Part shown: in pieces, positions 26,509 through 52,250 of the stretch
Position numbering within the stretch: position 1 is the first letter of the stretch
Layout of the letters: each line of letters starts with the position of its first letter
Source: an uncultured Planctomycetota bacterium
GTDB lineage: Bacteria; Planctomycetota; Phycisphaerae; UBA1845; UTPLA1
NCBI GenBank assembly: GCA_900696465.1
Contig: CAADGE010000042.1
Location: forward strand, 62,001 to 126,000
Direction of reading: 5' to 3'
DNA length: 64,000 bases
Notes under the pieces: model-generated
Databases searched by the model: none
The model's input: the letters and a program-made list of their open reading frames with translations, nothing else
Told to the model about the DNA's origin: nothing
Made by a program: the position numbers and the translations under genes

Positions 26509-28269
26509 ATGCCAGCGCCTTCGACGACTGCCTTGGACGAAAACACGTTCTTCATGATCATGTTCACGTTCGGCTCGCTCATGGGCCTCGTGACGCTCGT
26601 CTACGTCATCAAGCAGGCATTCAGTCGGCAGTCCGGTGAAGTCGGCGGATGGGAACTTCGCGGTGCCCGCCAGCGAATCGCCGCCGTCGTACGCACGACC
26701 CTCGCCGAGGGCCTTCGTGCTCGTGTTGCATCCGGCTTTGCCCTGCTGATCCTCATCAGCATCCCCATCTTTTGGCTTACGGCCGAAGGCGACGGCACCA
26801 TCAAGGGCAAGGTGCAGATGTTCATCACCTACTCCCTGGGGCTCACCAGCTTCCTGCTCGCCGTCCTGACGATCCTCTTCTCTTGCCGGAGTTTGTCCGT
26901 TGAGATTGCCTCGCGCCAGATTTACGGCATCGCTACCAAGCCCATCCCCCGCTGGCAGATCGTCGTCGGCAAATGGCTGGGTGTGATGACACTCAACGTC
27001 GCTCTGATCGCGATCGCCTGCCTGATGACCTGGGCCGGCACCCGCGCAAACGTATCGCGCTTCAAGAAAGACCTCGAATTCGACCTGATCACCTACGGAA
27101 GTCTCACGCCGTCGCAGGCCGCAGACACCATTGCCGCGCTGGCCAATGTCCGTGGCGTAGGCAAGGAAGGAATGGAGAGCCCGATCATTGCCTCCTTTGC
27201 TTCGCAACTCGGTAAGACGCACGAGGAGATCGGCGACATGCTGCTGCGCCTGCCGGAATCGACCCGCGTCAATCTCCGTCGCTTCGATGAACTGCGCCGC
27301 CAGGTCCTGGTCGCGCGGACCATCATCCCCGCGCCGCTGCCGGATTTCTCGAAAGATATCGATGAAGTCTACAAGGCCCTCCGCGAACAGGGTCGCCTCC
27401 CCGAAGACTGGTCCGACCGCCGCATCCGCGAACAGATCTATAAGGAACTCGTCGGCGGCTACTGCGCCATCGGTCCCGGCGAAGTGCGTGTCTGGCGCAT
27501 GCAGGGTCCCCCGCCGCAGGAGGGGCGCGACTGGGTAATGGGTCTGCGATTCAAGATCCGAGCCATGCGTCAGCCGCTGGCGACTCAGGTGGGCGGCATC
27601 ACGCTGGAGACCGACAGTCTGCTGGGCCGCTGGATTCTCGGCGATCCACGCACAAGCGCGTACATCGAGACGATTGATCAGTACCCGATCAACACTTTCA
27701 CGGAGATCGAGATCCCGCAGCAGGGCGTCGAGAAGGACGGCACCGTCATCGTTAACTTCCAGAACATCGACCCGCGCCAGATCGACGCCATCTTCGACCT
27801 GCCCACCGGCGATCTGCAGGTTCTCTATCGCGTCGGCTCCTGGGAACTGGCCATGCTTCAGGCGGCGCTGGCGATGCTCATTCCGCTCTCGTGCCTGGCC
27901 GCCTTCGGTGTCTGTGCGTCCACGTTTCTGTCCTTCCCCGTCGGCACACTCATCGTGCTGACTCTCTACATCATCAGCAGCTCCATGGGCTTCGTGGCCG
28001 ACTCACTGGCCGTCAGCCGTGAGTATGCCCCGCCGGAACACGACCGCACGCTCGTGTACGAAGTCCGACGCCTGACCGTCGAGAGCATCGGCTTCGCCCT
28101 GTCGATCGGTGACCTCGACCCGGTCAACAAGCTGATGGAAGGCCTGGCCATCGGGTGGAAGCCCCTGGCCGACACGGCGTGGAAGTACCTTCTGGCCAAG
28201 GGTGTAATCGTCCTGACCCTGGGAGTCTTCATCCTCCGCCGCAGAGAACTGGCCGCTGTGATAGTGTAG
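26509..28269 (+). CDS. ABC-2 type transporter permease with a large soluble insertion
   Basis: This 586-residue permease has helices near the N-terminus (FFMIMFTFGSLMGLVTLVYVI, then FALLILISIPIFWL, then FLLAVLTILFSC) and the docking element SVEIASRQIYGIATKPIPRWQIVVGKWLG. A large extracytoplasmic domain of about 270 residues (roughly 180-440) follows, then three or more C-terminal helices. The big loop is unusual for ABC-2 permeases, and a smaller version occurs in the divergent permease at 18914. It ends the five-gene SPFH/ABC block. The substrate is unknown. The first ATG is followed by a second at 26554; the first is used because AGG lies close before it. Confidence 0.85.
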   Translation: MPAPSTTALDENTFFMIMFTFGSLMGLVTLVYVIKQAFSRQSGEVGGWELRGARQRIAAVVRTTLAEGLRARVASGFALLILISIPIFWLTAEGDGTIKGKVQMFITYSLGLTSFLLAVLTILFSCRSLSVEIASRQIYGIATKPIPRWQIVVGKWLGVMTLNVALIAIACLMTWAGTRANVSRFKKDLEFDLITYGSLTPSQAADTIAALANVRGVGKEGMESPIIASFASQLGKTHEEIGDMLLRLPESTRVNLRRFDELRRQVLVARTIIPAPLPDFSKDIDEVYKALREQGRLPEDWSDRRIREQIYKELVGGYCAIGPGEVRVWRMQGPPPQEGRDWVMGLRFKIRAMRQPLATQVGGITLETDSLLGRWILGDPRTSAYIETIDQYPINTFTEIEIPQQGVEKDGTVIVNFQNIDPRQIDAIFDLPTGDLQVLYRVGSWELAMLQAALAMLIPLSCLAAFGVCASTFLSFPVGTLIVLTLYIISSSMGFVADSLAVSREYAPPEHDRTLVYEVRRLTVESIGFALSIGDLDPVNKLMEGLAIGWKPLADTAWKYLLAKGVIVLTLGVFILRRRELAAVIV

Positions 28270-28428
28270 GCATAAATACGCATCACATCCCACTTCGACT
28301 AGCACATAAGACACTTCCTGAAAACAAGTTACGTTCTCTATTTCGCGTTCGTACATGGGCGAATGCTCATCATTCAATTCGAATGAGATTTCGCGGTCCG
28401 TCTCTCCCGCAGGTTCGTGACAAAGGTA

Positions 28429-28496
28429 GGCCGGCTGATCGAGTCGGGGCCTGTAAGTGCGAAACGAGCCCTTCGCCTTGCAGGTCCCGGCCGGCC
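28429..28496 (+). promoter_or_regulatory. Long leader hairpin upstream of the matrixin gene
   Basis: About 25 pairs can form. GGCCG (28429-28433) pairs with CGGCC (28492-28496). After a nine-base bulge, 28443-28457 pairs with 28477-28491 with three G-T wobbles. After a one-base bulge, GCGAA (28459-28463) pairs with TTCGC (28472-28476), leaving the loop ACGAGCCC. It ends 39 bases before the ATG at 28536. It has no U-tract and I do not recognise a known riboswitch in it. Confidence 0.6.
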
Positions 28497-28535
28497 AAAT
28501 GCAGCAGGACCTTAACGAAAATGGAGAAACGAACT

Positions 28536-30908
28536 ATGACCGCGAACCTCAACAAAAAAACCATCGCGAACACCCGCAAGAACTTCAGTGCCGCGGCTGG
28601 GCGGACATCACGGCGATCCGTGCCTGCACTGCGGTTGATGACCATGGCCCTGCTGATGTCGGCCGCCCTGGTGCAGCAGCTTGCCGCGCAGCCCGGTGCC
28701 TTTCAGCAGGCCGGCCGCCGCGAGCGGATCCGCACCCTGGTCACGAAGCCGCACCTTCTCCAGGCCGCCGACGCCGAGCCGCACGATCATTCTGACGATG
28801 ACGCCCATGAACATGATCACGACGATGCAAACCGATGCGTCGAGCTGAACGGAATGAGCGTCCTCTACAAGGTCGGTGCGTCGGTCGACGACATTGTCGA
28901 CGACCTCGCACCGCTGCCGGACAACGAACTCTTTGCCGCCTTTCAGCCGCACGGAAGCCGCTGGACGAACACGGCAACGAATGGTTTCGTCGCTCAGGGA
29001 CAGCGCATGACGCTGACCTACAGCTTCGTTCCCGACGGCACGCCGCTTTCCGTTGTCGGCTACGGCCAGGGAACCAGTAACCTGCTTGCCCAACTGGATG
29101 CCAACTTCCCCGGCGGCCGCGCGGCATGGAAGGCGAAATTCGCCCAGGCGTTCAACAGCGCCAGTTGGCTGACCAATATCGAATACGTCGAAGTCGGCGA
29201 CGACGGCGCGGCGTTCCCCAGCAGCCCTGGCGCGCTGGGTGCCCGTGGCGACATCCGCATTGCCATGATGCCGCTGGGCACGCCCCTGGCAGTTAACTTC
29301 TATCCTCAATTCGGTGGCGACATGGTGCTCGACAGCCAGGACATCGCCGATTTCATCAACCCCGCCAACGACTACCGCGCCCTGCGAAACGTCCTGATGC
29401 ACGAGCACGGCCACGGCCTGGGTCTTCGCCACGTCGATCCGGCCAACGGCACCAAGCTCATGGAGCCCTTTCTCGTGACCAGCTTCGACGGCCCGCAGGA
29501 AGACGACATTCGCGCCGTGCACTTCCTCTACGGCGACTGGGCCGAGCCAAACGCCGGCTACGGCGAAGAATTGTTCGTCGGAGGCCCGCTGAATACGCCC
29601 GTGCCGAACGATCCTACGATCCTCAGAGTCGAAAACGTGTCTCTGGAGCGTGCCGGTGAATCCGACTTTTACGGCTTCACGGCTTTCGCCGGTGTCCCCA
29701 TTGCCGTTCGTGTCGATCCGATCGGCACGTCTTACGAGCAAGGACCTCAGGACGGCGCTACCTCCATCGTAAACGCCAAGGCCGTTCGAAACCTCGGTCT
29801 GCGACTCTATCGGCGCATCAGTGCAGCGACCGGCGAGCTTGCCATGCTCGCCCAGATTGACTTCAACGCGGCGGGCCAGTCGGAATATCACCCGCCGATC
29901 ACCTACACTCAGGCCGGCTACATGCTGGCGGAGGTCTACTCGACTGACGGCGTCAACGACGTGCAGCGCTACCAGCTCACGATCAGCAACGCAGCCATCG
30001 CAGCGCCGGTCGAACCGTCTTCGATGAGCGTCTTCAACGTTGCCGCAGGTCAGCAGATCTTCGTCGGATCGACGGTGCAGTTCGGCCAGGTCAACATCGG
30101 AAACAGTTCGAACGTGACGCTCACGATCGGCAATGGCGGCCCCGGCGCGCTGGAGATCGGACAGATCACGCTCGCCGGACCGGGTGCCGGCGACTACAAC
30201 TTCTCGCTGATCGGGAACCCGGTGCAGTCCGGCGGCACGGCATCGCTGGCCATCAGCTTCCAGCCGAGCGCGGCCGGCGCACGACAGGCAGTCATGACGC
30301 TGCCGAACAATGATCCGTCTCAGCCGAACTTCAGCTTCATCCTCAACGGCAGCGGCGTGCAGCCCACAGCACCGGCGATCGAGGTCTCGATCAATGACGT
30401 GGCTGTGACAAGCAACGCGTCGGTCGACTTCGGCGAGGTGGAATTGGGGCAGTCCGAACTGCGGTCGATTCGAATCCGCAACACCGGCAGCGCCCCGCTG
30501 AATGTGACGAACGTCACGATCGTCGGTACATCATCGGCCGATTTCAGTTCAACCCTGACCACGGCGTCGATCGCGCCGGGTGGTTCCGTGACCGGTACGC
30601 TGACCTTCTCGCCGCAGGCAGCCGATCTTCGTCAGGCCCAGCTTCGGATCTTCAGCAACGCCCAGCCGAGCCCCTTCTCGCTGACGATGACCGGAAACGG
30701 CCTTGAGCCGGTCAGCAACGATGACGAGGAAGACGTCGACAGTGACGTTGATCAGAACGAGGATGAGGACGAGAGTGGCGATGAAGACCTGCCTCCGCAA
30801 GGTAATACGCTGGTCGGGGGCGGACTCTGCGGCATCGGTTCGGCCATGCCGATGATGCTCGGCATCCTCGGTCTGTGCGGAATGGGCATAAGCCGCCATC
30901 GGCGATAG
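28536..30908 (+). CDS. Secreted matrixin-type zinc metalloprotease with choice-of-anchor-D domains
   Basis: The 790-residue protein has a long N-region and signal peptide (LMTMALLMSAALVQQLAAQ). A His/Asp-rich propeptide segment follows, then a catalytic domain with HEHGHGLGLRH at residues 289-299, the metzincin zinc motif. Two beta-sandwich repeats occupy about 505-615 and 620-725, each with FGQVNIGNSSNVTLTI-like strands of the choice-of-anchor D type. A very acidic linker (near 726-755) precedes a C-terminal hydrophobic segment (MLGILGLCGMGI) ending in RHRR, which looks like a CTERM-type sorting tail. GGAG nine bases before 28536 favours this ATG over 28521. It is a single gene with a large hairpin in its leader. 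Confidence 0.87.
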   Translation: MTANLNKKTIANTRKNFSAAAGRTSRRSVPALRLMTMALLMSAALVQQLAAQPGAFQQAGRRERIRTLVTKPHLLQAADAEPHDHSDDDAHEHDHDDANRCVELNGMSVLYKVGASVDDIVDDLAPLPDNELFAAFQPHGSRWTNTATNGFVAQGQRMTLTYSFVPDGTPLSVVGYGQGTSNLLAQLDANFPGGRAAWKAKFAQAFNSASWLTNIEYVEVGDDGAAFPSSPGALGARGDIRIAMMPLGTPLAVNFYPQFGGDMVLDSQDIADFINPANDYRALRNVLMHEHGHGLGLRHVDPANGTKLMEPFLVTSFDGPQEDDIRAVHFLYGDWAEPNAGYGEELFVGGPLNTPVPNDPTILRVENVSLERAGESDFYGFTAFAGVPIAVRVDPIGTSYEQGPQDGATSIVNAKAVRNLGLRLYRRISAATGELAMLAQIDFNAAGQSEYHPPITYTQAGYMLAEVYSTDGVNDVQRYQLTISNAAIAAPVEPSSMSVFNVAAGQQIFVGSTVQFGQVNIGNSSNVTLTIGNGGPGALEIGQITLAGPGAGDYNFSLIGNPVQSGGTASLAISFQPSAAGARQAVMTLPNNDPSQPNFSFILNGSGVQPTAPAIEVSINDVAVTSNASVDFGEVELGQSELRSIRIRNTGSAPLNVTNVTIVGTSSADFSSTLTTASIAPGGSVTGTLTFSPQAADLRQAQLRIFSNAQPSPFSLTMTGNGLEPVSNDDEEDVDSDVDQNEDEDESGDEDLPPQGNTLVGGGLCGIGSAMPMMLGILGLCGMGISRHRR

Positions 30909-31074: not shown

Positions 31075-32253
31075 ATGAATCCGATGAATCGTCATGACAT
31101 AGCAGCGTGTGGTCAAAGTAGCGGCCGGCGTCCCCGCCGGACGACGATCACGAGAAACTGTACAGATGAGCGAGCAATTTCTCTCTCAACTCCGAAATCA
31201 ATCTTTGTGGTCGCCCCTCTGCTCCTCATCGGCCTGATGATGACAGCCGGCGGCGGATGCCCCATGAACATGAACGGCGCAATGCCACCGCCACAGAATG
31301 TCCCGCTGGTGTATGGCAACGGTTCCGCAGGGGCACGCGTAGTCAACAGCGATGAGAACTGGAACAACGCTGATCAGGCCCCGACCAATCTCCAATTCAC
31401 CAATCTGACCATCGAAGCCGGGGCCACACTCATGCTGCCCAGCGGCATGACCATCCGCTGCACCGGCACCTTTACCAACAACGGAAATGTAGTCGTTCGC
31501 ACCGGGGCCGATGGCGGTTTCGCCGGCGCCTCGACTGCGGAGGGCGACTTCTCCACTCTGGCGGTCGCCCCGGTCGCAGGTATCGGCACGCTCGCCGCGC
31601 AAGCTTCCGAAGGAGGATCGAGCAGCTCAGCTCGGCTCGGTGGTCGCGGAGGTTTCGGCATCAGCGAGTTCGAAGCCCGCCAGGTGCTGGTCGTCGGTAC
31701 GGCGGCCGGCGGCGGCGGCGCTGCGGCAGGCACGGACAGTCAGCCCGGCATCCCCTCGATCAATGTCGGCTCCTCCGGCGGCGGCTCCGTGCGGATTCTC
31801 GCGGCCGGCACAATCACCAACGCCGCCGGCGCGAGCATAACAGCCGACGGCGATGACGGTGAAGGCGGCGGGGGCGGAGGTGGTGTCATAATCATGGCAT
31901 CTATGACGTCCATCACTCAGGCCGGCACAGTAAGTGCACGCGGCGGCGACGGCGAGAGCGGCGACAGCAATGAGGCGCCCAGCGGTGGCGGTGGCGGCGG
32001 CCTCGTACATCTGCTCGCACCCTCCATCACCAGCACCGGTGCAGTCGATGTCTCCGGCGGAGCGGCCGGTGCGATCGGCCCCGGGGTCAGCGCTGTCACA
32101 CGATTCGGCGGCGGCGGCGGTGGCGCGTCCGGAGGCAGCGGAGGAAACGGCGGCAGCGTGCCGGGCGACGCGCTGGCCACCCCGACCGCAGCCACTGCCG
32201 GCGCTGCCGGATTTGCGCTCGAAACACTCACCGACCCAACGTCGCTATTCTGA
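31075..32253 (+). CDS. Glycine-rich lipoprotein-like surface protein
   Basis: This 392-residue protein has an unusually long polar N-region (about 42 residues), a hydrophobic segment (IFVVAPLLLIGLMMTA) and a cysteine (AGGGC) that could be lipidated, although the lipobox is not canonical. The body is built of glycine runs with Ala, Ser and Thr (for example GGGGGGGVII) interrupted by beta-strand-like patches such as GTITNAAGASITADG. This resembles the bacterial glycine-rich or pectate-lyase-like beta-helix proteins of unknown role. GAGGTG six bases before the ATG supports the start. It is convergent with, and overlaps by nine bases, the membrane TPR gene. Confidence 0.72.
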   Translation: MNPMNRHDIAACGQSSGRRPRRTTITRNCTDERAISLSTPKSIFVVAPLLLIGLMMTAGGGCPMNMNGAMPPPQNVPLVYGNGSAGARVVNSDENWNNADQAPTNLQFTNLTIEAGATLMLPSGMTIRCTGTFTNNGNVVVRTGADGGFAGASTAEGDFSTLAVAPVAGIGTLAAQASEGGSSSSARLGGRGGFGISEFEARQVLVVGTAAGGGGAAAGTDSQPGIPSINVGSSGGGSVRILAAGTITNAAGASITADGDDGEGGGGGGGVIIMASMTSITQAGTVSARGGDGESGDSNEAPSGGGGGGLVHLLAPSITSTGAVDVSGGAAGAIGPGVSAVTRFGGGGGGASGGSGGNGGSVPGDALATPTAATAGAAGFALETLTDPTSLF

Positions 32254-47193: not shown

Positions 47194-47542
47194 GGGGGCG
47201 ATCTGGCTTCGACCGGGCAAGTTGAGGAGATGGTGGCGTGCCGAGGTTGTCAGGCGGCCTCGTTAAACACCTGGCAAAAACTTACGTGCCAACTCTCAGT
47301 TGAGCATGGCTGCCTAAAACGGCTGCCCGTCGAACCGCCAACGCCTGCTAGGTGGGGAGACGGTGATTAGCAGGCTGGCTGTTTCCTGCTGCTCGGCCGG
47401 GAAACAGCGAGAACTTGTCGAGCTGGACGCCGCTGGAGCTTGTCGACCGGCGACGGCGGCGTTGACGACAAATGATCGACTACGCACGTAGAGGCCGTTT
47501 CTGAAGTGCTTCGGGACGCGGGTTCGATTCCCGCCGCCTCCA
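47194..47542 (+). ncRNA. ssrA: tmRNA (SsrA)
   Basis: The gene starts GGGGGCG-ATCTGGCTTCGAC, the conserved tmRNA opening, and ends with a T-arm (GCGGG TTCGATT CCCGC) and acceptor strand CGCCTCC, which pairs with GGGGGCG over seven positions. The discriminator A is at 47542 and CCA is not encoded. The tag frame is best read from GGC at 47273 to TAA at 47315, giving GKNLRANSQLSMAA; the GCA frame one base later gives a tag not ending in AA. With SmpB, tmRNA rescues stalled ribosomes and tags the nascent chain for proteolysis. Length of about 349 bases is normal for a one-piece tmRNA. Confidence 0.93.
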
Positions 47543-49355: not shown

Positions 49356-52250
49356 TCAGCCATCCGTGGACGTGTCGCCTACCGATGCTTCACCTTCGAG
49401 CAGTCGAAGCCGCGATTCACAATCTGCCTGAAGTATTTTCATCTCTTCGTATTCATACAGCCGATCCCGCGTCAGTCGTCCCGCTGCCTCCAGCTCGTCG
49501 AGCAGTTCACCGGTCCGAACAAAGTTCTCCCGGGCCGCTTTCAGTTGCATGAGTTGCTCTTCGCGGCTCAAATCGCTGGCGATGGCCAGCGCCAGTTGCA
49601 CCATACCCAGTTCGCCGTAGGCATAGGCCTCGTCGTGCGCCGCCAAGGCATCCACACGATCCGCCACCGCAAGGCGCTGAAACATCGCGAGCGCCTCGCC
49701 AGCCGGCTCAAGGGCCTCCCGCGGACGATTCAACCGGTAAAGCGTCTTGGCGATTCGCTGATAGCCCAGCGCCAGGTCGCGCTGCAGTACGATATAGTTC
49801 GGGTCAGCAGCGACCAGTTCCTTCAACTGATCACGATAACGCTCAAAATGCAGCAGCGCGTCTTCGTGCCGGCCCAGCCGCTCGTAGGCATCGGCTACTG
49901 TAAAGTCATTCACGGCCAGGTTTCGACGCGCCCGGGCATCCGACGGATCCGCCGCGATCATCGACTCCCGCACTGCCCGCGAGGCGAGTATCAGCTGGAG
50001 TCCTTCCTCCTTTCGCCCAAGTCGCATCAGGTTGCGCCCGATGTTGCTGCGCGTGGAGGCAAGATTCGCCTGGTAGCCCGCGTGCTGCGGCGCTTGTGCC
50101 ACCAGTTGCTCTGAAATCGCAAGCGACCGGACCAGCAGCTCATGGGCCTTCTCGTCGTCGCCCATGTGCGCGTGGATTTCGGCGATGCGATCAAGAATGA
50201 TGCTGTGGTTGCTCATCGCGTGCAGATCGCCGGGGTTCTTCTCCAGCCCCGCCGCTACGTATGCCTCATAGCGGCTGAAGCCCTTGAGGGCCTCCTCGTA
50301 GCGACCCATCGCCAGTTCCATTCGCCCCAGGTTGGCATGACCAAACGCCACCGTACGCGCAGAATCCGGATGCTCGGGAAACCTCGCTTCCAGGGCTTCC
50401 ATCGTCTCGAGATGCTTTCGCAGATACACGATGGCTTCTTCGGTGCGCCCCATTGCACGAAGCGCGTTACCGACGAGCTCTTGTGAGCTACCGACAACTG
50501 ACTGGGCCTGTGGATCGTCGGGTTTCATCTTCACCAGCCGCTCCGCCAGCGCCAGTGCTCTCTGATAAACCTCCAGCGCCGTCGCAGTGTCACCAAGATT
50601 CGCCTGGCTTGCCTTGCCCAGAATGCTCCCCAATCGGTGGTATCCCTCAATCAGCTCGTTCAGCAATTCTGCCTCCTGACCCGTCTCTGAAGAAAGCTCA
50701 TCGAGATAATGAACCGCAGTGCGGATGATCTTCTCTCGCGCCTGGGTGGCACCGGACAGCATGGCAATCTCGTCATAAATATCATGGATAAAAATCCGTG
50801 CGAGCTGGCGAACATCTTCAAAACGCCGCTCTGCGAGTTGCCGCTGGACATTCTCCGCGTCCCGCGCCGCTTGCGATTCCTCCAGCAACTGTTCGGTAAG
50901 TTGACGCTGCTGCGACTCACGCAGCGCGAACCAGGCCATTCCAACCGCACCCAGCAGCAGCGTGCCGAAAACGGCCGCCGCCCCGCCCACCAGCGCCTTG
51001 TTCCGCTTTGCAAATTTCCGAAGCTGGTACATCGCGCTCGGCGGACGCGCGATAATCGGTTCATCGTGCAAGTAACGCCGGATGTCCGCCGCCAGCTCCG
51101 CCGCCGATGCGTAACGATGCGCGCGGTCCTTTTCCATCGCACGGGCGACGATTGTTTCGATGTCCCCGCGAAAGATCGTATTAATCGAGCTGAGCCGCGA
51201 AGGTTCCTCCTCCTGAATCAACCGCACCGCCTCGGGAATTGAGCAATTCCGCACGTCAATCGGCAGCCGGCCGGCGAGCAGCTCGTAGAGAACAACGCCC
51301 AGTGCGTACACATCTGAACGTATGTCCAGCTCGCGCGAGTCGCCGCGAACCTGCTCCGGGCTCATGTACGGAACAGTGCCGACGAGTTGACCGGCATCGG
51401 TCCGCATCGTCACTGTCTGCAGATCGGAATCTGTGGCCCTCGCCACGCCGAAGTCCAGCACTTTCGGTTGACCGATGCGGGCTGAATCCTGATCGCGATT
51501 TACCGCGTCGGTTGGTCCCGCGGGCGAGCGTAGGGCCGAATTTGCCGTCGAGGAGTCCGTCTCGTCGACGACCAGAATGTTCGCCGGCTTCAGATCGCGA
51601 TGAATTACGCCCTTTTGATGCGCGTGATGAACGGCGTCGCAGATTCGTGCCAGCAGTTCCAGCCGCTGCCGGTTGCCGAGACCGCGATGGCGCGCGTACT
51701 CGTGCAGCGGCAGTCCATGGATCAGCTCCATTGCCAAAAAGGGCTGCTCGTAAGTGGCACCGCCGGGACCGCTCATCTCGGCCACGCCGGCTTCGTAGAT
51801 ATGGGCGATGCCTGGATGCTGGAGTTGACCGAGCACCTCCGCTTCGTTCTGAAATCGACGGATCAGGTTTCGCGACGTGAGCCCCGGCGTGATGACCTTC
51901 AGCGCGATCGTCCGACGGGGATGCTCCTGCCTCGCTTCGTACACCACGCCCATGCCGCCTTCACCGATCTTTCGGATGATCTGGTAGCGGCCAATTTGGT
52001 CAGGAAGCACCTCGCAGCCGGCAGGTTCGATCTGCTCGGCGCGCAATCGCGCTTCGTGTGATACAATCGGCGATTCGAGAAAGTCGTTCTGCGAGCGATT
52101 GGCTCCGACGAGTAGCCCATCGACAAACTCCCGCAATTCAGTATCCGAACCACAGAGCCGATCGAGTGCCGCTTGGCGCTCATCTGCAGAGAGCGGAAGA
52201 ACCTCCGCGAAGATCGCCTCGGCCGCAGACCATCGATCGTCGCGAAGCAT
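49356..52250 (-). CDS. Membrane serine/threonine protein kinase with TPR repeats
   Basis: The 964-residue protein has a PknB-type kinase domain. The glycine loop IGEGGMGVVYEA is at 95-106, Lys118 in IALKVI, the catalytic loop HRDLKPANIL at 217-226, DFG at 266-268 and the activation segment GTVPYMSPEQVRGD. A single helix (LVGGAAAVFGTLLLGAVGMAWFAL) lies near 420-443. The C-terminal 500 residues are TPR repeats. It would phosphorylate proteins in response to a signal sensed outside or through the TPRs. The ATG at 52250 has GAGGAG eight bases upstream; the frame opens at 52355 but lacks a start signal. It follows the ECF sigma gene by 46 bases. Confidence 0.93.
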   Translation of the reverse strand: MLRDDRWSAAEAIFAEVLPLSADERQAALDRLCGSDTELREFVDGLLVGANRSQNDFLESPIVSHEARLRAEQIEPAGCEVLPDQIGRYQIIRKIGEGGMGVVYEARQEHPRRTIALKVITPGLTSRNLIRRFQNEAEVLGQLQHPGIAHIYEAGVAEMSGPGGATYEQPFLAMELIHGLPLHEYARHRGLGNRQRLELLARICDAVHHAHQKGVIHRDLKPANILVVDETDSSTANSALRSPAGPTDAVNRDQDSARIGQPKVLDFGVARATDSDLQTVTMRTDAGQLVGTVPYMSPEQVRGDSRELDIRSDVYALGVVLYELLAGRLPIDVRNCSIPEAVRLIQEEEPSRLSSINTIFRGDIETIVARAMEKDRAHRYASAAELAADIRRYLHDEPIIARPPSAMYQLRKFAKRNKALVGGAAAVFGTLLLGAVGMAWFALRESQQRQLTEQLLEESQAARDAENVQRQLAERRFEDVRQLARIFIHDIYDEIAMLSGATQAREKIIRTAVHYLDELSSETGQEAELLNELIEGYHRLGSILGKASQANLGDTATALEVYQRALALAERLVKMKPDDPQAQSVVGSSQELVGNALRAMGRTEEAIVYLRKHLETMEALEARFPEHPDSARTVAFGHANLGRMELAMGRYEEALKGFSRYEAYVAAGLEKNPGDLHAMSNHSIILDRIAEIHAHMGDDEKAHELLVRSLAISEQLVAQAPQHAGYQANLASTRSNIGRNLMRLGRKEEGLQLILASRAVRESMIAADPSDARARRNLAVNDFTVADAYERLGRHEDALLHFERYRDQLKELVAADPNYIVLQRDLALGYQRIAKTLYRLNRPREALEPAGEALAMFQRLAVADRVDALAAHDEAYAYGELGMVQLALAIASDLSREEQLMQLKAARENFVRTGELLDELEAAGRLTRDRLYEYEEMKILQADCESRLRLLEGEASVGDTSTDG

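Follow-up and report, generated by a model that had tools for sequence, protein, structure and literature searches.

A conserved-loop leader hairpin behind an ECF-type promoter-like site upstream of a planctomycete matrixin gene

Introduction

In an uncultured Planctomycetota bacterium (GenBank assembly GCA_900696465.1, contig CAADGE010000042.1, positions 62,001 to 126,000), the gene for a matrixin-type metalloprotease is preceded by a long and very stable hairpin, which raises the question of what such an RNA structure would do in the leader of a secreted protease and what would control its transcription. The whole stretch of 64,000 nucleotides that was analysed is referred to here as the window, and positions count from its first base. 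A preliminary description of the locus, made by reading the letters, had reported a 25-pair hairpin (5 + 15 + 5 pairs with a nine-base bulge) and had offered a cis-regulatory RNA, or stabilisation of the message, as explanations. Planctomycetes have many ECF sigma factors paired with kinases; to our knowledge, few targets of these kinase-paired factors are known. ECF factors under kinase control have been described (PMC8103513).

Results

Structure of the leader hairpin

Folding confirms that the leader hairpin is real. The MFE structure of positions 28429-28496 (+ strand) reaches -44.9 kcal/mol (z -5.97) and contains 25 pairs, the total originally reported; none of 200 dinucleotide shuffles (mean -27, sd 3) folds as well, and the energy is the lowest among 31,966 68-base windows taken from both strands of the 64 kb at a step of 4. 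The MFE pairing is 7 + 13 + 5 with the nine-base bulge on the 5′ side, from which the earlier register differs, by reading of the letters, by a two-pair shift; the distance of 39 bases from the hairpin end to the ATG at 28536 agrees with the figure first given. The pair count is by itself not rare, with at least 25 enclosing pairs in 76 of 15,984 sampled windows. Against a background of G+C-rich DNA, it is energy and conservation, rather than pair number, that set the hairpin apart. The inner pair 28450-28484 has a probability of 1.00 in longer folds, and the outermost pair 0.20-0.90. An inverted-repeat search gave no hits, we think because the stem of the leader hairpin includes G-U pairs and a bulge.

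The features of the locus are collected in Table 1. A second in-frame ATG is found at 28521, upstream of the matrixin ATG, and the unpaired probability of the likely ribosome-binding site ranges from 0.18 to 0.91 with the stretch folded. Matrixin matches (E up to 1e-10) occur in 15 of the 17 genomes of the window's family, and the named relatives are mostly Planctomycetota and Phycisphaerae MAGs. Elsewhere in the window, a tmRNA gene (tag peptide ANSQLSMAA) is located at 47194-47542 (+).

Table 1. Positions of the features at the matrixin locus, counted from the first base of the window
Feature	Position	Strand	Basis or remark
CGGTCC, predicted -35 element of an ECF-type promoter	28394..28399	+	13 leaders: 12 exact, CAGTCC in L246; fixed distance to next element
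GTTCGTGACA, predicted -10 element	28413..28422	+	Same 13 leaders, at most one mismatch each
25-pair leader hairpin	28429..28496	+	Fold, shuffles, lowest energy of window; first base is the predicted transcript start, ±~2 bases, from promoter geometry
Apical loop ACGAGCCC	28464..28471	+	AGCC in apical loop of 8/8 compared hairpins
GGAG, likely ribosome-binding site for ATG 28536, outside hairpin	28523..28526	+	Read from sequence
Matrixin-type metalloprotease gene with choice-of-anchor D repeats	28536..30908	+	PF00413 Peptidase_M10, NF012200 choice_anch_D
Glycine-rich protein gene after matrixin	31075..32253	+	Possibly same transcript

A promoter-like site at fixed spacing

Upstream of the leader hairpin lies a bipartite site, CGGTCC-N13-GTTCGTGACA (28394-28422), the two elements of which are separated by a constant spacing in a gap-free alignment of 13 leaders. 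The exact site occurs once each in the window's own genome (G000) and in G015 and G016 of the same genus, before matrixin in every case; the remaining places have two or three mismatches, and the totals of 29, 22, and 22 places in these genomes are close to the 20, 23, and 16 of a reversed control. Nine distinct matrixin leaders carry a credible site (the window, L009, together with L010, L011, L012, L013, L014, L071, L072, and L073). These were counted from sets of 30 and 80 loci with some places in both, the duplicate loci of identical sequence being L069 (L010), L075 (L013), L224 (L072), and L231 (L073). The site of L071 has three mismatches, yet a PWM score of 31.5; that of L031 is doubtful (three mismatches, PWM 8.0), and the best site in L015 has five mismatches, which is chance level.

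As a -35 element, CGGTCC does not resemble the GGAAC type described for RpoE. Such elements vary from one ECF group to another. Promoters with this layout are expected to start about 35 bases past the first base of the -35 element, and the hairpin starts 35 bases after the first base of CGGTCC (28394), so that the hairpin would be the first thing transcribed. The main stem begins at exactly this distance in the window, L010, L012, and L014; in L011 it lies 13 bases later than the predicted start, and in L013 a small hairpin comes first, with the main stem 14 bases later than the predicted start. Because the site looks like an ECF promoter and the hairpin begins 35 bases on, the hairpin probably starts near transcript base +1 as predicted from promoter geometry. 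A separate reading, in which GTTCGTGACA is a part of the RNA that pairs with bases before the ATG (GTCACGAAC in L012), was dropped because the site recurs before other genes and beside the ECF gene described below.

Co-occurrence with a kinase-linked ECF sigma factor

Beside the matrixin gene of G015 lies a divergent ECF sigma factor gene (Sigma70_r2, PF04542; Sigma70_r4_2, PF08281), with a gene for a Ser/Thr protein kinase (PF00069) after it. Of the 114 genomes analysed in the order, 15 encode an orthologue of this ECF protein (E up to 1e-35; 53-67% identical to the one in G015). Eight of the ECF-positive genomes belong to the window's family (G000, G002, G003, G004, G006, G009, G015, and G016), and the ECF and kinase orthologues are adjacent in all eight. 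Allowing at most one mismatch, the site occurs at 31 places in 28 of the 114 genomes (reversed control, 8 hits) and follows the sigma factor in its distribution: it is present in 13 of 15 ECF-positive versus 15 of 99 other genomes across the order (p 7e-8), in 6 of 8 versus 0 of 9 within the family (p 0.002), and in 7 of 7 ECF-positive versus 15 of 90 ECF-negative genomes outside the family (p 1.3e-5), all p values ignoring relatedness. The outside-family figure is the fairer one, since it was family members that supplied the site pattern.

G020 and G026 carry the site in the interval that separates the ECF gene from a divergent gene other than matrixin, and more sites near the ECF gene, some of them weak, were observed in G003, G006, G009, G023, G042, and G044. 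The ECF gene of G000 is not beside matrixin but on a different contig, where no good site adjoins it. We regard the promoter link between the site and the kinase-linked ECF sigma factor as well supported, with recognition by the sigma factor itself presumed. A relative of the kinase paired with the ECF factor (47% over 165 aa) is also encoded in the window, at 51567-52040 (-). G015 additionally contains a second ECF/kinase pair (L285, G015:C1:3038577-3039086) whose ECF protein shares 55% identity with the first; in the 12 kb around this pair, no site exceeds a score of 8.

Elsewhere, the proteins whose genes follow such sites look exported, to judge by eye from a hydrophobic N-terminus, and comprise a Peptidase_S74 protein (L275), two proteins with HYDIN-type Ig domains as in matrixin's tail (L277 and L289), and a glycine-rich protein (L290). 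The glycine-rich protein encoded after the window's matrixin gene has no Pfam match. Its tblastn matches fall in G015 (70%) and G016 (62%), where they follow matrixin, and near the ECF gene in G009, G020, G026, G042, and G044 (35-47%, partial, and possibly helped by composition). The C-terminus of the matrixin protein carries a tail (GLCGIGSAMPMM...LCG...RHRR) common to matrixin orthologues, and similar CGFG tails end the L277 and L289 proteins; a tail of this type is a possible sorting signal.

Hairpins and loops in relatives

All eight ECF-positive genomes of the family have a hairpin that comprises 24-34 pairs and carries AGCC in the apical loop (the window, L010, L011, L012, L013, L273, L283 of G002, and L284 of G004). 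The loops read ACGAGCCC (in two hairpins), CAAGAGCCC, ATGAGCCC, TAAGAGCC, TTAGCCC, and TGAGCC (in two), with the consensus ANGAGCCC; as background, 28 of 4,576 overlapping strong-hairpin windows elsewhere in the 64 kb have an AGCC loop. These are not eight independent cases, since only four genera are involved. Among those genera the stem letters are much changed and the AGCC of the loop stays, and this conservation of the loop on changing stems suggests that it is bound by something. The eight-way comparison rests on independent folds because, for the more distant hairpins, MAFFT did not align the stems correctly. As to how individual members were located, the G006 hairpin was noticed by reading its leader, that of G002 beside a weak promoter score, and that of G004 when 1.3 kb was scanned specifically for GAGCCC.

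Five of the hairpins are matrixin leaders, and the other three lie near the sigma gene (G002, G003, and G004). Directly after these three, on the same strand, no convincing gene was seen, only short ORFs; either a matrixin gene once stood there and was lost, or the RNA functions by itself. The G003 hairpin follows a promoter-like site with two mismatches. Before the G002 hairpin the PWM score is 11.8, near the 11.0 given by chance in the window, and before that of G004 no score exceeds 8. Between G002 and G004, the hairpin falls within the longest nearly unchanged non-coding block of the aligned stretch and shows two changes, one per stem side, with a long hairpin kept in both.

Long hairpins (z -2.7 to -6.9) were recovered in six of the 16 leaders folded, namely the window, L010, L011, L012, L013, and L273. 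The L014 leader folds with z -2.4 and the other nine with z -1.8 to +1.8, the same promoter occurring in other lineages without a strong hairpin. The matrixin leaders of genus g3, to which G002, G003, and G004 belong, carry another kind of short hairpin close to the predicted start (L014, L031, and L015), with arms like GGCCC/GGGCC and loops like AAATGG.

Covariation and model searches

Covariation was assessed on an alignment of apical parts cut by hand (A5), in which L010 is one base out of register. Two-sided changes are present in 4 of 12 pairs, a count equalled by 51 of 500 shuffles and, with few sequences, statistically weak; the covariation score is equalled by 33 of 500 and the percentage paired by 15 of 500, and slid pairings pair far less. 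The cis-regulatory reading offered in the preliminary description thus gains partial support: in relatives the hairpin persists, its loop is the same, and some of the changes are compensatory, while the covariation among them is statistically weak. That description had not included the promoter-like site, its link to the ECF/kinase pair, the AGCC loop, or the three relatives whose hairpin precedes no evident gene.

A model built from four hairpins (R1) gave matches at E up to 1 in 31 of the 114 genomes, G000 among them with a single match. Beyond the training set, G066 scores best (E 0.0033), and G030 and G058 likewise come out ahead of G003 (0.13). No promoter was seen before the G066, G030, and G058 matches in the stretches read, and we take all three as chance. 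The G003 hairpin was recovered at E 0.13 in the order-wide search and at 0.0012 in a set of 47 kb. R1 returned no match in G002, G004, or G006 order-wide, nor at the hairpin in L283 and L284 with filters off.

Discussion

The reading we prefer builds on the fold itself, on a promoter-like site that keeps its spacing and tends to occur together with the sigma gene, and on the conservation of hairpin and loop. It proposes an ECF-controlled, 5′-terminal hairpin that protects the message and displays its conserved loop to a partner, and we judge the case for and against it to be evenly balanced. The kinase-linked ECF sigma factor would recognise CGGTCC-N13-GTTCGTGACA and start the matrixin message, whose 5′ end would be the hairpin. 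The first transcribed bases would fold into the 25 pairs with almost no free 5′ end, and the near absence of a free end would slow 5′-end-dependent decay, so that the message for the secreted protease may stay long-lived after the sigma factor has acted. The loop would serve as a docking site for a protein or an RNA. RppH and RNase E require single-stranded 5′ ends and a 5′-terminal hairpin hinders both (PMC3997798), and messages are stabilised by 5′ secondary structures (PMC3997798, PMC7509114).

Several other explanations were weighed. That the hairpin belongs to a riboswitch or other known RNA class seems exceedingly unlikely: a structured leader does precede a single-copy gene, as it would in that case, but the element is a single hairpin without a junction, and a search of the window and of seven relatives' loci brought no Rfam family up to its gathering score, the best sub-threshold match being P35 at 21.9 bits versus the 70 needed. 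This result speaks against a known riboswitch and is in line with the preliminary description, which had recognised no such class; nor did search listings over open-licence PMC papers show anything on the element. Scarcely more probable is that the hairpin terminates the permease gene before it, belongs to a dispersed repeat, or folds by chance, even with the permease stop (28269) about 160 bases ahead of it and the DNA G+C-rich. The missing T-run after the stem and the lack of any + strand terminator-like site in 28200-28600 argue against a terminator; moreover, the permease adjoins matrixin only at the window's own place among 30 loci and at none of the 80 loci of the second set, whereas the hairpin is kept with matrixin in five genomes. 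The one full copy in the genome, other matches being pieces of 14-30 bases, argues against a repeat element, and both energy and loop stand above the background.

Two other explanations accept the element and differ on its function. The RNA might act chiefly in trans or by titration within the ECF circuit, as a small RNA or a protein sponge that has become the matrixin leader in some genera and stayed separate in another. Pointing this way are the same-loop hairpins of G002, G003, and G004, which lie on the upstream side of the ECF gene, are divergent from it and precede no evident gene, as well as the nearly unchanged non-coding block around the hairpin in G002 and G004 and the retention of the loop though stems change. 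However, a good promoter match is missing ahead of the G002 and G004 hairpins, short ORFs do follow these hairpins, and loss of matrixin from that place would look alike; we think this account unlikely. Comparably doubtful is the proposal that the hairpin protects the 5′ end of the mRNA and does nothing else, its loop letters being shared by descent and binding nothing. The stabilisation by 5′ secondary structures cited above is in its favour, and the different short hairpin near the predicted +1 in genus g3 is in keeping with it, but AGCC is retained in all eight loops despite the change of stems among four genera. A further scheme, in which the ANGAGCCC loop of an ECF-linked RNA binds a regulator of the same sigma/kinase circuit, would make the RNA a separate small RNA in one genus and a secreted-protease leader in others, and would provide post-transcriptional feedback to a kinase-gated regulon of surface proteins; we offer it as a speculation that is probably wrong.

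The protective leader with a displayed loop, as we prefer to read it, has partial counterparts in known systems. The stabilising 5′ stem-loops of the Escherichia coli ompA and papA messages likewise form at the 5′ end or close to it and do not include the ribosome-binding site; they differ in that here the start is predicted, the loop letters are conserved, and the element follows one ECF promoter. Like kinase-regulated ECF factors, the present one is encoded beside a kinase gene, with a divergent target gene in several of the genomes compared here; it differs in that a hairpin RNA is attached to the regulon. The orphan leader motifs of Rfam share a conserved structure and loop in a leader, but the present element consists of one narrowly distributed hairpin and matches no Rfam family. 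The three hairpins near the ECF gene without an evident gene after them could also be likened to sigma-dependent small RNAs.

These data suggest a previously undescribed regulatory RNA element tied to one stress-type sigma factor. For the Planctomycetes, one ECF/kinase pair gains a candidate promoter sequence, a few likely exported targets, and an attached RNA element; if the loop does have a partner, a kinase-gated sigma circuit would gain an RNA arm.
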